Position numbers and translations under genes: made by a program. 64,000 nucleotides of DNA, taken from assembly GCF_900091445.1 (NCBI RefSeq), contig NZ_LT607733.1, positions 1,133,501 through 1,197,500 of the forward strand, written 5' to 3'. This document shows positions 1 to 4,472 of the stretch, piece by piece. The notes beneath the pieces were generated by a model. The model searched no databases, was not told the DNA's origin, and saw only the letters and a list, made by a program, of their open reading frames with translations. The number at the start of each line of letters is the position of its first letter. Positions within the stretch are counted from its first letter, which is position 1. Origin of the DNA: Micromonospora echinofusca (GTDB lineage: Bacteria > Actinomycetota > Actinomycetes > Mycobacteriales > Micromonosporaceae).

Positions 1-530
1 CGGTAGGCCGTCAGGGTGTCGTTCTCCCACCGCTGCCGTACGTCGCCGACGAGGTGACGAACCAGCCAGGCGATCTCGCCCGCGTCGACCCGCTGCTCGC
101 GGTAGATCTCGACGAGTTCGTCGCGCAGGTGCCTGCGGATGCCCGCAGTCTGGGCGAGCCAGTGGGACCGGGCCGTGTCCCGGGGCACGTACCGCCCGAA
201 GTAGGTGTCGAAGAGCCGGTCCACCTTCCGGGCGAAGCCGCCGGCCAGCGACCCTTTCTTGCGCTGCGTCGGCGGAGCGTACTCCGCCTCCTTCAGCCGC
301 AACCGCTCCCGCCGGAAGTGCCGGTCCGCCCCGCCGACCACGAAGGCGACGACTCCCGCCGCGGACACGAGGTAGGCGAGCACCGGGGACAACTCGCCGC
401 GTTGCAGCACCAGTCGCGCGATGTTGCCCGCGGCGAGGACGAAGGCCGCTGCGGCGGTGAGGGCACGCAGCCATTCGCCCACCGGGATCGAGGCCGGCTG
501 GACGGGACGCACCCTCGGCGGCGCGGGGGA
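1..530 (-). pseudogene. 3' part of a membrane-protein gene split by an IS110 element (runs off the window)
   Basis: Open minus-strand reading continues from the insertion-element boundary to the window edge (about 176 codons) with no start or ribosome site of its own. The peptide begins SPAPPRVRPVQPAS, has two hydrophobic segments (around AAAAFVLAAGNIA and LAYLVSAAGVVAFVV), then a charged stretch with RKVDRLFDTYFGRYVPR and a region rich in Arg, His and Glu. It joins in frame to the fragment ending at 1970 once the element is removed at its CT core, so I read the two as one gene, the third of the Nudix operon. Similar uninterrupted actinobacterial proteins are known to me only as hypothetical membrane proteins. 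Function unknown; the gene is probably inactive unless the element excises. Confidence 0.75.
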
Positions 531-548
531 GTGTCCCTATGGGTTTCG

Positions 549-1736
549 TCAAGCGGGGACCGGACTGATGGGGCGTGGCTGGTAGGGGATCTTGTCGCGG
601 AGCATGGCGAACAGGACGTCGCAGCGGCGTCGGGCCAAGCAGATGAGGGCGGCGTTGTGGCGTTTGCCTTCGGCGCGTTTCCGGTCGTAGTAGGCGCGGC
701 TGACGGGGTCGGCCAAGGCGGCGAACGCGGCGAGGAAGAAGGCTCGTTTGAGGTTCTTGTTGCCGCCGCGGGGTGGGTGTTCGCCGCGGATGCTGCTGCC
801 GGATCGTCGGGTCACCGGGGCGAGGCCGGCGTAGGCGGCGAGGTGGCCGGGGGTGGGGAAGGCGGTGCCGTCGCCGACTTCGAGCAGGATCCGGGCGGCG
901 GTCCTGACGCCGATGCCGGGCATCGAGGCGAGAGGGTGCGCATCGAGGATCCTTTCGACCTCGGCGGCGGCCTGGTCGCGTTGGCGTAGGACGTCGCGGA
1001 GGCTGTCAGCCAGGCGGGGCAGGATCGTCTCCGCCGCGTTCGTGCCGGGGACGGTGACGGTCTGCTCGTCGAGCGCGTTCATGATCTGCTCGACGAGGCG
1101 TTCACCCATGCGTGGGGCGTGAGGCCCGGCGACGGACAGCAGTTTGCGACGTCCGGCCTTGCGTAGCCCGACCGGTCCCCCGCAGCGCGACAGCAGTTCC
1201 AGCACGGCCTTGTGCTGCACTTTCGGGCCGAGAACTCGTTCCAGGGCGGGGTGGATCTGAGTGAGCAGGCCACGGATCCGGTTGGACACCCGGGTGGCTT
1301 CGCCAGCGAGGTCGTCGTCGAAGCCGACCAGGACCTCCAGCTCTGCGAGGGCTTCGTCGCCGACATCGACCCGGCGCAGCGTGTGCGGAAGGGTGCGGGC
1401 GGCGTCAGCGATGACGTAGGCGTCGCGGGCGTCGGTTTTCGCCGCACCGGGGTGCAGGTCAGCGATGCGGCGCATCGCCAGGCCGGGCAGGTAGGCCACC
1501 TGATGACCGCAAGCCCGAGCCACCGCGACCGGCAAGGCGCCGATCGAGGCCGGCTGGTCGACCACCACCAGAATCCGGCCGTGGCGGGCGAGCTTGTCGA
1601 ACAACTGCCGCAGTCGGGCCTCGGTGTTCGGCAACGGCGCGTCGTGCAGCCGCTTGCCGTCCGGTGCCAACCCGACCGCGTGGTGGCCCTCTTTGCCGAC
1701 GTCCAAGCCGAGGTAGACGCCGTATCCGTCGTTCAC
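549..1736 (-). CDS. IS110-family DEDD transposase (bridge-RNA-type recombinase)
   Basis: 395 residues. The N-terminal RuvC-like domain shows the acidic set in order: GLDVGK (D near residue 12), a second acidic position in VVVDQPA, and KTDARDAY. The C-terminal Tnp domain has the helix-hairpin-helix MPGIGVRTAARIL and the RRSGSSIRGE segment that holds the family's catalytic serine, followed by GGNKNLKRAFF. The GTG at 1736 is chosen because GGAGG lies about 8 bases upstream; a GTG at 1751 is in frame but lacks such a site. Length is usual for the family and the gene looks intact. It acts on its own element's ends and, by family knowledge, uses an RNA transcribed from the adjoining left end as guide. 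Confidence 0.93.
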   Translation of the reverse strand: MNDGYGVYLGLDVGKEGHHAVGLAPDGKRLHDAPLPNTEARLRQLFDKLARHGRILVVVDQPASIGALPVAVARACGHQVAYLPGLAMRRIADLHPGAAKTDARDAYVIADAARTLPHTLRRVDVGDEALAELEVLVGFDDDLAGEATRVSNRIRGLLTQIHPALERVLGPKVQHKAVLELLSRCGGPVGLRKAGRRKLLSVAGPHAPRMGERLVEQIMNALDEQTVTVPGTNAAETILPRLADSLRDVLRQRDQAAAEVERILDAHPLASMPGIGVRTAARILLEVGDGTAFPTPGHLAAYAGLAPVTRRSGSSIRGEHPPRGGNKNLKRAFFLAAFAALADPVSRAYYDRKRAEGKRHNAALICLARRRCDVLFAMLRDKIPYQPRPISPVPA

Positions 1737-1968
1737 CAGACCCGCCTCCACGCATCGATCCCGTAGCCTCGGTCGCTGGTCCAGGCGTCGGACTGCCGGC
1801 AGCCACGTTACGAAGAGACCTACCCCAACACGGGTGGCCGTGTCCCTATCAGCGGTCCGCCGACGCCACCCGACCCGGCGACAACACCCCCCGGATCATG
1901 CAAACGACAGGGGCAGGAAGTCATACCGGGCCGGGCGACCGAGGGTCCCCGGCTGGGGACGATCAAAA
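1737..1968 (-). ncRNA. Candidate bridge RNA region in the IS110 left end
   Basis: A 232-base stretch without a credible gene lies between the left CT core and the transposase start, in the place where IS110-group elements encode their bridge RNA. It holds an exact copy of the last ten bases of the right end, ATAGGGACAC (1849 down to 1840), in the same orientation. This is what a left donor guide should look like. About 40 bases 5' of it is GGGGGG (1892 to 1887), which could pair with the TCCCCC on the right of the target. Left target matching is weak (CGTT only). RNA ends and folding were not computed. Confidence 0.5.
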
Positions 1969-1969
1969 A

Positions 1970-2557
1970 GGTAACGGGGTGGAAGAACAGCCGGACCCGG
2001 TTCCTCCTGTCCCCGGCCTTCTGCCCGGCCCTGGCCCGCTCGACCGAGCGGTGCCACAGTTGGTCCTCGACCGGGCCTTCGAGCAGCACCCCGAGGTGAT
2101 CGAGGATCTTGTCGCGCTGGCGCGGCCTGAGCTCGTCAAGTTCCTTGACGGTCAACTCGGTGTCGGCGGTGTCCAGGGAGCTGAGCAGCCGCAGGACCGA
2201 CCGCAGGCCGACCGTCCACTCGCCCCGGCCGTGCACCCGGGTGATGCGGCCGCAGATGGTGGAGAGCGTGATGAGGTCCTCGTTGCCCAGTTGTCGCAGG
2301 GTGCGTCCGCTCAGCAGGGCGAGCAGCCAGTGGAAGCGCACCTCGTCGGTCTCGTGCCCGCGCGCCACGGCCTCCTCGATGAGTTCGCGTGCCCTGCCCG
2401 GCATCCGGGCGTCGAGGTACTTCACGCCGGTGCGGAACCTCTCCTTCGGCGAGGCGTCCGGTGGCAGTTGGTAGTAGACGTCGCCGTGGATCGCCTGGGC
2501 CTGCACCCCGACGTGGGCATCGCCCTGCGCGACGTTGGTCGTGGTCGGCGTGGTCAC
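1970..2557 (-). pseudogene. 5' part of the IS-split membrane-protein gene; N-terminal amyloid-like motif
   Basis: 196 codons of the host gene remain on this side (GTG start at 2557, last host codon ACC at 1970). Residues 11-27 hold GDAHVGVQAQAIHGDVY, closely matching residues 273-288 of the upstream nucleosidase-like protein. Residues 35-190 are helical and charged, ending in RRNRVRLFFHPVT. Reading on into the element adds about 49 meaningless residues. The GTG overlaps the upstream stop (GTGA), so the gene was translated as the third of the operon. The intact protein would be an N-terminal signalling motif, a soluble helical part and a C-terminal membrane domain. Exact function unknown. Confidence 0.75.
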
Positions 2558-3702
2558 GACAGCCCCTTCGCCACGGCCATGATCGCGGCCAGCCTGGCCG
2601 CCAGCTCCGTCACGTCGGCCACCAGGCCGCGCAGCCTCCGCAGCGACACCATCAGGACGCTCCGGCTCTGCGGTGTCTCTTCCTGGAGGCAGTCGCCGGC
2701 CGTGTCCAGCTCCGTCTCCGCCGCCGCGTAGGTGTCCTCGTCCAGTTGGCCGTCGCGGTGGGCCTGCTTGAGCAGGTCACGCAGCTCGCTGATCGCCGTC
2801 GCGAGATCGGCCGGCTGCTCCGGCTCCCAACCCACGGTGACGTTGCCGTGGATCTGTCCCGCCTGGACGCCCACCCGGGCGTTGCCGCTGGCGATGTTCC
2901 TGTTGGTGATGCCCATCTGCGCCTGCCTGTTCCTCTTCGCCGTTTCCCGTTGGTCGGCCGCGGCGTCGGCGACCAGTTCCTGCGCCAGCGCCGTGGCGAA
3001 CGCGGCCGCGTGGGCCACCGCCCGTGGCTGCCAGTTCTCCCCGTCGGTGGCCGTCTTGGTGCCGTCGGCCCGGTCGCTGATGCCCCGCACCACGACCACG
3101 GGCAGTGCCCGGTTGAGGTGACCCGCCTGGGCGACGCCGGCGGCCTCCATCTCGATGGCCACGGCGTCGTTGTAGTGCTGCCGAACCCACCGGGCCTGCT
3201 CGGAGACCGCCGAATCCTGTACGATCTCGCCCGCCGCGATCGGCGCGAAGTGCACCCGGGGCGCGGCGTCGCCGGGCTGGCCCCGGAACCACTCGCCGCT
3301 GCGCGCCAGGTGTTGCGCGATCTGGCCCGCGCCGTGCGGAATCTCCCACGCCTTCGGCCGGGCCTTGAGGCCGTCGTCCTCGCTCGTGCCGCCGTGGTAG
3401 GCGTAGACCTGGGACGCCACCACCACGTCGCCCAGCCGGATGCTCGGCCAGAGGGCGCCGGCGACGCCGACGAAGATCACCGCGGCGGGGGAGAACTCGG
3501 CCATGGCGCGCTCGGCCAGTACCGCCGCCGGGTGGTTGCCCTTGCCCACCAGGCCCAGCGCCACCCGGCAGCCGCCGAGCCGGCCGACCTCGAAGCGCGT
3601 GCCGGCGGGATGGCGGTGCACCCGCAGGTCGGTCAGCCTGCTGCGGACCGCGTCGTACTCCAGGTTCAGGGCCGTGAGAATCACGACGGGACTGCTGTTC
3701 AT
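2554..3702 (-). CDS. Nucleoside phosphorylase-fold protein (MTA/SAH nucleosidase-like) with C-terminal amyloid-like motif
   Basis: 382 residues. The first 240 form a PNP_UDP domain: VVILTALNLEYDAV at the start, VGVAGALWPSIRLGDVVVAS, the IEMEAAGVA segment with the ribose-binding Glu, and VVRGISDRADG with the catalytic Asp. A linker leads to GNARVGVQAGQIHGNVTV (273-290), shared with the next gene's product, and then an acidic helical tail of about 90 residues. The start ATG at 3702 overlaps the stop of the Nudix gene (ATGA) and its own stop overlaps the next start (GTGA). The family hydrolyses N-glycosidic bonds of nucleosides or nucleotides; in some antiphage systems PNP-fold effectors destroy ATP. 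An effector role here is inference; plain MTA/SAH salvage is the alternative, but the extra motif argues against it. Confidence 0.82.
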   Translation of the reverse strand: MNSSPVVILTALNLEYDAVRSRLTDLRVHRHPAGTRFEVGRLGGCRVALGLVGKGNHPAAVLAERAMAEFSPAAVIFVGVAGALWPSIRLGDVVVASQVYAYHGGTSEDDGLKARPKAWEIPHGAGQIAQHLARSGEWFRGQPGDAAPRVHFAPIAAGEIVQDSAVSEQARWVRQHYNDAVAIEMEAAGVAQAGHLNRALPVVVVRGISDRADGTKTATDGENWQPRAVAHAAAFATALAQELVADAAADQRETAKRNRQAQMGITNRNIASGNARVGVQAGQIHGNVTVGWEPEQPADLATAISELRDLLKQAHRDGQLDEDTYAAAETELDTAGDCLQEETPQSRSVLMVSLRRLRGLVADVTELAARLAAIMAVAKGLS

Positions 3703-4433
3703 GCCTCTGCCGTCTCCTTGTCCGTCGGCTGCGTCGGCCGGGTCATGGGGGGATGCAGCGCCTCGCGCGGGCCCGGCCGGAACAACCGTGCGGGGCGTCC
3801 GGTGTCGGTCTTCCTCGTCGTACCGGCGGGCACGATGAAGCCGTCGACGCTCTGGACCTTGCGGTAGAAGTTCCGGGGGTCGAGGCTGACGCCCCACACC
3901 GCCTCGTAGACGTCCCGCAACTCCGAGATGGTGAACGTCGGGCCGCAGAACGCGGTCGCCAGCGCCGAGTACTCCAGCTTTGCGCGGGCGCGCTCGACGC
4001 CGTCCGCGACGATCCGGCGGTGGTCGAAGGCGAGCCGGGCGTCGGGCGAGAGAGCGCGATCGGTGGGGGTCCAGCACGCGTCGGAGGCGTCGGTGCCGGC
4101 GGTCGGCTCGGGCAGCCGGGGAGCGACGGCGAGGTAGGCCACGGAGACGACGCGGCCCCGGGGGTCGCGTCCCGGCGTGCCGTAGACGCCCAACTGTTCG
4201 AGGTGCAGTTGGTCCGCCGACAGGCCGGCCTCCTCGGCCAACTCCCGGTGGGCCGCCGCCGGCAGGTCCTCCTCCGCGTGGTTCAGGAAGCCGCCGGGAA
4301 GGGCCAGGGCGCCCCGGTACGGCTCCACGCCGCGCTGCACGAGCAGCACCTGGAGCCGGGAATCGCGCAGGGTGAGGATGACGAGGTCCACCGCGAGGAG
4401 AACGGTGGGCGCAACCCAACGATCGTCCGACAT
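3699..4433 (-). CDS. NrtR-like Nudix regulator (Nudix domain plus winged helix)
   Basis: 244 residues. The N-terminal half is a Nudix domain with the box GGFLNHAEEDLP..HRELAEEAGL; the loop is one residue longer than the classical GX5EX7REUXEE spacing, so hydrolase activity is uncertain. The C-terminal half (from about LAFDHRRI to NFYRKV) matches the winged helix of NrtR-type repressors, which sense ADP-ribose or NAD-related ligands. ATG at 4433 is preferred (AGGGTGAG just upstream) over an in-frame GTG at 4442. It is the first gene of the operon and a palindrome lies 14 bases upstream of its start, so it most likely represses itself and the two coupled genes. Confidence 0.85.
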   Translation of the reverse strand: MSDDRWVAPTVLLAVDLVILTLRDSRLQVLLVQRGVEPYRGALALPGGFLNHAEEDLPAAAHRELAEEAGLSADQLHLEQLGVYGTPGRDPRGRVVSVAYLAVAPRLPEPTAGTDASDACWTPTDRALSPDARLAFDHRRIVADGVERARAKLEYSALATAFCGPTFTISELRDVYEAVWGVSLDPRNFYRKVQSVDGFIVPAGTTRKTDTGRPARLFRPGPREALHPPMTRPTQPTDKETAEA

Positions 4434-4447
4434 GGATCTCACCCTAG

Positions 4448-4472
4448 ACTTACTGTCACTATGACAGGAAGT
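4448..4472. promoter_or_regulatory. 25-bp palindrome, probable operator of the Nudix regulator
   Basis: Central CTGTCA-CTA-TGACAG (4453-4467) is a perfect inverted repeat. It extends to ACTTA on the left and GAAGT on the right with one mismatch, so 12-base half-sites are nearly exact. It sits 15 to 40 bases upstream of the regulator's ATG, where it would cover the promoter. Size and position fit an autoregulatory NrtR-type site; binding is inferred. Confidence 0.7.

Follow-up and report, generated by a model that had tools for sequence, protein, structure and literature searches.

We analyzed a 64,000-nucleotide stretch of the Micromonospora echinofusca chromosome (contig NZ_LT607733.1; the whole stretch is called the window) and identified a minus-strand operon whose second and third products, a protein with the purine nucleoside phosphorylase (PNP) fold and a membrane protein, share a short motif. 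Our favoured reading, to which we give somewhat better than even confidence, is that the two form an effector/membrane-partner pair controlled by an NrtR-type regulator and coupled by a homotypic motif, immune-like and independent of nucleotide-binding, leucine-rich repeat-type receptors (NLRs). The pair is probably a conflict system. The genes lie in the order Nudix/NrtR (4442-3699), PNP (3702-2554) and third gene (from 2557), with a 4-base overlap at each joint. An earlier note on this DNA had described this layout and the shared motif, and both stood; the third gene, which it took to encode an intact membrane protein, is split by an insertion element (see below). The chromosome around the window is 7.0 Mb and actinobacterial, and the named proteins nearest to the window PNP are from Micromonospora.

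A short motif shared by effector and membrane partner

BLASTP comparison of the window PNP with the third protein gave an E value of 7e-6, and the similarity was limited to 30 residues (266-295 and 5-34, respectively) covering the motif, which spans residues 273-290 of the PNP and 12-28 of the third protein. The score of the window pair was reached by 1 of 2000 shuffled pairs. A motif profile, built partly from both window proteins, was run against the whole genome with 150 of 219 candidates scored; the two strong matches were the window PNP and the third protein (E 7e-14 and 2e-12), and the next match had an E value of 0.13. Profile-profile comparison of the effector motif with the partner motif gave 98.6% probability over 25 columns. 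Across 34 sequences the PNP motif formed an island of conservation, with a mean share of the commonest residue of 0.79 as compared to 0.44 in the preceding linker, 0.61 in the tail and 0.82 in the catalytic domain. In the predicted models of both proteins the motif was of low confidence (on the PNP side the predicted local distance difference test score, pLDDT, was below 50), as would be expected of a flexible segment. Beyond the motif, the PNP and the membrane partner are not detectably homologous by these comparisons. A common helical domain following the motif had been hinted at by tblastn and local alignments; it was rejected since comparison of the tail profiles gave less than 1%.

The alignments indicate that the two motifs co-vary between cognate proteins. 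In diverged loci they changed jointly (SPAIQQNKTTTGDIH / SPTIQQNGTVHGDTN in L083; GRVGQQIGVSYG / TQVGQQIGVVYG in L130), and in L021 one residue was missing from both. For the swap test, 30 representatives were chosen that share less than 50% identity across the remainder of the membrane protein; the cognate excess was 17.6 (z 9.1, with p at its floor, 5e-5). Raising the limit to 70% identity gave 53 representatives and a cognate z of 11.9. Left out of this test were duplicates (L077, L081, L134-L137), near-duplicates (L055, L128), degraded or frame-split loci (L072, L020, L080, L119), loci where no partner lay upstream (L078, L086, L123, L127, L133) and the window itself, whose partner gene is cut.

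Conservation of the operon and exchange of the effector

Six short peptides of the window PNP, two of them in its tail, served as search patterns and yielded 33 PNP-anchored loci, which are close relatives by construction because they were found with these patterns. In 33/33 the gene downstream encoded a partner with the motif at its N-terminus; this gene was frame-split in L020 and its product shortened to 556 amino acids in L028, and the 4-base overlap between PNP and partner was kept in 30. The membrane partner occurred in 43 of the 150 family genomes, own genome included. PNP homologues reaching past the motif (match extending at least to residue 370, at E no higher than 1e-30) were found in 28 family genomes, 27 of which also had the partner. 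The earlier note had named loss of the motif in homologues, and the two proteins occurring mostly apart, as patterns that would speak against a pairing; neither was seen, and the operon is conserved.

Anchoring on the partner gave 44 loci in 43 genomes, ten of them also PNP-anchored. The upstream gene was examined in 42 and encoded a PNP in 31 (degraded in L072 and L080), a short motif-plus-helix protein in eight and a TIR-motif-helix protein in two; one locus had nothing upstream. An in-frame stop preceded the short frames in seven of the eight cases, and the eighth lay at a contig end. The TIR_2 match in L075 (30.4 bits) passed the cut-off of 28, while L076 was called by its sequence similarity to L075. 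Among 16 further loci, from the 22 genomes new in our phylum and order samples, a PNP was present in 13 and absent in three. The membrane protein was detected in at least 2 of 396 genomes of the phylum sample, one being the own genome, a lower bound because only two candidates per genome were scored, and in 28 of 249 genomes of the order sample, where up to four were scored. Plasmids gave one partial match to the membrane protein, on a Streptomyces plasmid, and six phage records matched, in the PNP domain only. By these family assignments the effector is exchanged (PNP, TIR or short motif-plus-helix protein) and the membrane protein is constant.

This exchange bears on a plain MTA/SAH salvage operon, in which the motif would have arisen incidentally through local duplication or gene conversion, an explanation we disfavour as very improbable. 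The nearest solved structures are indeed MTA/SAH nucleosidases, and the DNA encoding the motifs of the window pair shows 68% identity across 60 bases. However, the same codon is used at just 8 of the 13 identical residues of that pair, gene conversion alone would not explain why, across many lineages, the resemblance is limited to about 25 residues, and the short and TIR effectors retain the motif without the PNP enzyme.

The nucleosidase-fold effector

The effector matched Pfam PNP_UDP_1 (E 5e-34), and its AlphaFold2 model (mean pLDDT 78, dropping below 50 in short parts of the catalytic domain) resembled MTA/SAH nucleosidase (MTAN) structures in Foldseek (E 6e-20). Residues E15, E186 and D210 were invariant in 46 sequences and aligned with Vibrio cholerae MTAN; we take E12, E174 and D197 (Escherichia coli numbers) to be the catalytic residues of MTAN. 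The PNP-fold effector proposed earlier was thus borne out. The protein missed the cut-offs of the curated MTAN equivalogs (NF004079, 95 bits against 169; TIGR01704, 59 against 73.8). The low-confidence linker carrying the motif is followed by four predicted helices (300-316, 322-340, 344-361 and 365-381; block means of pLDDT 81-92 to residue 380). In PADLOC the PNP matched the PN-superfamily effector model and PDC-M60C, and the regulator matched nothing.

Several PNP homologues were found in other settings. One is fused to an NB-ARC/TPR module (L175, 3599-6358) and another to an AAA module (L186, 2786-4777). A third directly adjoins an NLR-like TPR protein (L174, 3-4036); its tail and that protein shared no motif (z -0.7). 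In L173 (3605-5244) a motif-bearing PNP is followed by a different, 162-amino-acid protein that starts with a weakly similar motif (z 2.1).

The membrane partner and its disruption in the window

Intact relatives of the third protein are about 660 amino acids long, with the N-terminal motif, a TPR-like domain, two transmembrane (TM) hairpins (four TM segments) and a C-terminal PH-like domain; the TPR-like and PH-like assignments rest on structural resemblance of a modelled intact relative. The database names in this family are mostly 'hypothetical protein'. No Pfam match above cut-off was obtained for the seven family members scanned, and no NB-ARC/NACHT or other NTPase domain was detected by Pfam in seven intact partners and three more distant ones. 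Foldseek with the whole membrane protein returned nothing at E 1e-3. A bestrophin-like TM region was suggested and distrusted, the similarity being at the level expected for helical arrangements.

The same level of structural match counts against a reversed signal, in which the membrane protein would itself be the effector, acting as pore or channel, with the nucleosidase-fold protein as sensor or signal generator. In described pairs, receptors with bacterial amyloid signalling sequences (BASS) bear the motif N-terminally (PMC7889193), as the membrane partner does, and variable enzymatic parts are taken as the effectors of conflict systems (PMC8195603, PMC7159879). We consider a reversed signal improbable.

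In the window, an IS110-family element (about 535-1979) sits inside the third gene; its ends were judged from two partial copies found elsewhere in the genome (92% identical over one part and 79% over another). Its transposase matched Pfam DEDD_Tnp_IS110 (E 4e-48) and Transposase_20 (E 4e-23) and exceeded the cut-off of NCBIfam transpos_IS110. The N-terminal piece was 64% identical to the intact relative P0125 from residue 1, the match passing the junction through two stops. The C-terminal piece was 68% identical to P0125 residues 196-662, in an open frame that extends 871 bases past the window start. The operon-side piece is soluble, and the membrane part restarts near base 530. Because the element parts the motif and TPR-like region from the membrane region, the system of the window strain is probably off or uncoupled. 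The two other PNPs nearest to that of the window (P0006 and P0007, 92% and 91% identical) come from strains for which a 662-amino-acid membrane protein is also listed, on a contig of equal length (P0127 and P0130). In L086 (3310-4961) the PNP gene is separated from the membrane gene by a different IS110-family transposase, a second case of IS110 in the operon.

The regulator and an operator-like palindrome

The first gene encodes a protein with Pfam NUDIX (E 8e-19) and NrtR_WHD (E 7e-15) domains, both above cut-off, in agreement with the NrtR-like regulator of the earlier note; at 124 bits it fell below the cut-off of 400 for the NCBIfam NtrR equivalog. The palindrome TGTCAN3TGACA, first recognised in the window, where it has a single match in the 64 kb, precedes the operon in 26 of the 33 PNP-anchored loci; the copy in L028 lies directly before the PNP gene. 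The regulator MsNrtR is described as an autorepressor with an upstream palindrome that controls nadABC (PMC6800001). The window regulator likewise combines a Nudix domain with a winged helix and has a palindrome upstream, whereas the MsNrtR box is GTTTTCGA-N7-TCGAAAAC. We infer that the regulator binds at TGTCAN3TGACA and that the operon may be under ADP-ribose control.

Relation to known signalling systems

The closest parallel is with the BASS and NLR-Bell signalosomes (PMC7889193, PMC8086366, PMC12261475, PMC9815663), in which adjacent or overlapping genes encode an effector and a receptor that carries the effector's short motif at its N-terminus. Here, too, neighbouring genes encode proteins that share the motif, which lies N-terminally in the receptor-side protein and behind the effector domain in 33/33 PNP-anchored loci. 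Unlike those signalosomes, the pair has no NLR receptor and no Bell effector (the short forms are uncharacterised). The receptor side is instead a four-TM protein with TPR-like and PH-like domains, the effectors are PNP or TIR, and the motif has an extra N-terminal half, NxAxGxAxVG. BASS has also been reported, less often, with CHAT and TIR (PMC7889193).

A motif search of 298 order genomes gave weak matches, some of them due to chance at their per-genome E values of about 0.0015 to 0.009, at NLR-type N-termini and the C-termini of small proteins; a helicase-like protein (L154) was among them. An NLR-type N-terminal motif was found in L152 (NB-ARC E 7e-11) and, by sequence only, in L161 and L157. 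In L159 a 116-amino-acid protein ends in VQAGEIHGDVRLG and is followed by an NLR-like protein starting with AVQAGSVRGGVHLH; we read the small protein as Bell-like, with no profile match. The VQAGxIHGDV core resembles that of the NLR N-termini and the Bell-like C-terminus (L152, L159), and the second half of our motif therefore resembles a described bacterial signalling motif. Proteins or frames with C-terminal VQAGxIHGDV-type motifs were also seen in L158, L160 and L163, as in L159 with its adjoining NLR-like gene, and these four look like canonical BASS pairs.

With RHIM, fungal PP and BASS3 the motif has in common a short V-Q/G-rich core and GVQ; the RHIM/BASS3 core is G-phi-Q-phi-G (PMC7885112), whereas the core here is G-V-Q-A-x-x-(I/V)-H-G. 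Fungal PNP_UDP proteins with the PUASM motif and an NLR (PMC9815663) likewise use an amyloid motif to link a PNP-fold effector with a partner gene, but they are fungal, the partner is an NLR and the motif is FxGxGxQxxGxGxF. A PNP domain also serves as predicted or modelled effector in other conflict systems (PMC8195603, PMC7159879, PADLOC 'PN-superfamily'). These differ in being death-like, TRADD-N, EAD or NTPase-linked, and the accessible portions of the two papers describe no motif co-varying with such a membrane protein. Our literature search, in which subscription papers and preprints were thinly covered, found no paper on the PNP/membrane-partner pair. Motif-coupled effector/receptor pairs are already known; what appears new here is such a pair without an NLR.

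A second PNP and membrane-protein system, with an NrtR-type gene nearby, was found in L189 (1900-4726), L190 (3390-6021) and L191 (3157-6124). Its membrane protein is unrelated, about 520-550 amino acids long with about three TM segments. A different Gly-rich motif is common to the C-terminal region of this protein and the PNP tail (z 13.3, 4.1 and 10.8, respectively), as compared to z 0.8, 0.1 and -0.4 for the rest of the membrane protein. L191 also encodes a third small protein with the same Gly-rich motif (z 6.5).

A proposed mechanism and the evidence weighed

In the reading we favour, the membrane protein would act as sensor or nucleator in place of an NLR. A trigger would expose or cluster its motif, which would then recruit or template the effector motif, probably as a RHIM/BASS-like amyloid. 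The recruited nucleosidase (or TIR NADase) would be activated and drain the nucleotide or NAD pool until growth stops, most likely as an abortive response to phage, and the regulator would derepress the operon upon a rise in ADP-ribose. The PNP fusions to NB-ARC/TPR or AAA modules and the second motif-paired system were counted in favour. A bolder proposal, to which we give somewhat less than an even chance, is that these operons represent an NLR-independent class of prion-like signalosomes, with a TPR/PH-like membrane receptor, motif templating, exchangeable PNP/TIR effectors and an NAD-metabolite regulator, in which lineages drift to private motif codes and whose logic arose twice, the second time with the unrelated protein and motif of L189-L191.

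Several results weigh against the favoured reading. The control of the swap test, effector tail against partner residues 60-200, was itself slightly positive (z 1.8, p 0.04 with 30 representatives; z 2.0, p 0.03 with 53). The cognate partner ranked first in just 8 of 30 cases (median rank 4), with poor ranks at the TIR locus L075 (14), L060 (16) and L126 (11). A partial Mantel test gave r 0.30 (p 0.0014, 55 pairs), and because its control was also positive (0.22, p 0.009) it was replaced by the swap test as main proof. The palindrome was missing in 7 of the 33 loci, and of 22 stretches inspected upstream of or close to more distant operons, which often have no NrtR gene, just 3 had a looser form. 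Three loci (L078, L123 and L127) had the membrane partner with no adjoining PNP or motif-bearing effector, and PADLOC models matched none of six membrane partners. Finally, the one published BASS3 peptide compared scored 1.3 bits against our motif profile, and 18 of 200 shuffles scored as high.

For an archaeal BASS3-like peptide the corresponding number was 9 of 200. On the core and the peptide score we rejected identity with RHIM/BASS3, a comparison made with two peptides and the core. Of the earlier interpretation, then, the operon, the motif kept in both proteins, the PNP-fold effector and the NrtR-type regulator were upheld, and identity of the pairing motif with RHIM/BASS3 was not. An AAA-type protein encoded close by in L127 is hit by several PADLOC models of defence ATPases.

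Co-variation requires contact, not amyloid, and the motif could instead be a non-amyloid dock: each motif would form a small heteromeric beta structure holding the nucleosidase on a membrane scaffold, in the service of regulated metabolism rather than immunity. The TPR-like and PH-like domains would fit a scaffold, and the NrtR-type regulator points to NAD physiology. Conflict systems are a better fit to the patchy occurrence of the partner, which 43 of 150 family genomes have, to the effector swap to TIR and the PNP fusions to NLR-type ATPases, and to the repeated damage and insertions (the window, L086, L020 and L080, of which L020 could be a sequencing error). Docking is in our judgment unlikely, though a shade less so than the reversed signal.

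Under the favoured reading of a motif-coupled conflict system, the operon is a concrete and widespread candidate; its many cognate motif pairs, diverged in nature, predict which motif should seed which. It ties PNP and TIR effectors to a membrane family with no Pfam match in the seven members scanned, and possibly to NAD-metabolite control.

Feature coordinates and an adjoining small protein

Table 1. Features of the operon in the window (window positions)
Feature	Positions	Strand	Basis or detail
Shared motif, effector side	2833..2886	-	PNP residues 273-290, GNARVGVQAGQIHGNVTV
Shared motif, membrane-partner side	2474..2524	-	third-protein residues 12-28, GDAHVGVQAQAIHGDVY
PNP-fold (MTAN-like) effector gene, 382 amino acids	2554..3702	-	Pfam, Foldseek
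PNP catalytic domain, residues 5-239	2986..3690	-	E15, E186, D210 kept
Effector C-terminal four-helix region, residues 300-381	2560..2805	-	AlphaFold2 model
Membrane-partner gene, N-terminal piece (motif and TPR-like domain, about residues 1-194)	1979..2557	-	P0125 match
Membrane-partner gene, C-terminal piece (from about residue 196)	1..530	-	P0125 match
IS110-family element inside the membrane-partner gene	535..1979 (ends approximate)	-	partial genomic copies
IS110-family transposase, 400 amino acids	549..1751	-	Pfam, NCBIfam
NrtR-type Nudix and winged-helix regulator	3699..4442	-	start GTG 4442 or ATG 4433
Operator-like palindrome, core TGTCA-N3-TGACA at 4454-4466	4450..4470	.	just upstream of NrtR-type gene

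A small protein of 176-207 amino acids adjoins the operon in five loci (L083, 6649-7179; L084, 7076-7606; L118, 1487-2110; L124, 1549-2115; L128, 6669-7226). It starts like LLAEYxxLKxEQxxRI, gave no Pfam match above cut-off in the four copies scanned and is possibly an extra component of the operon.

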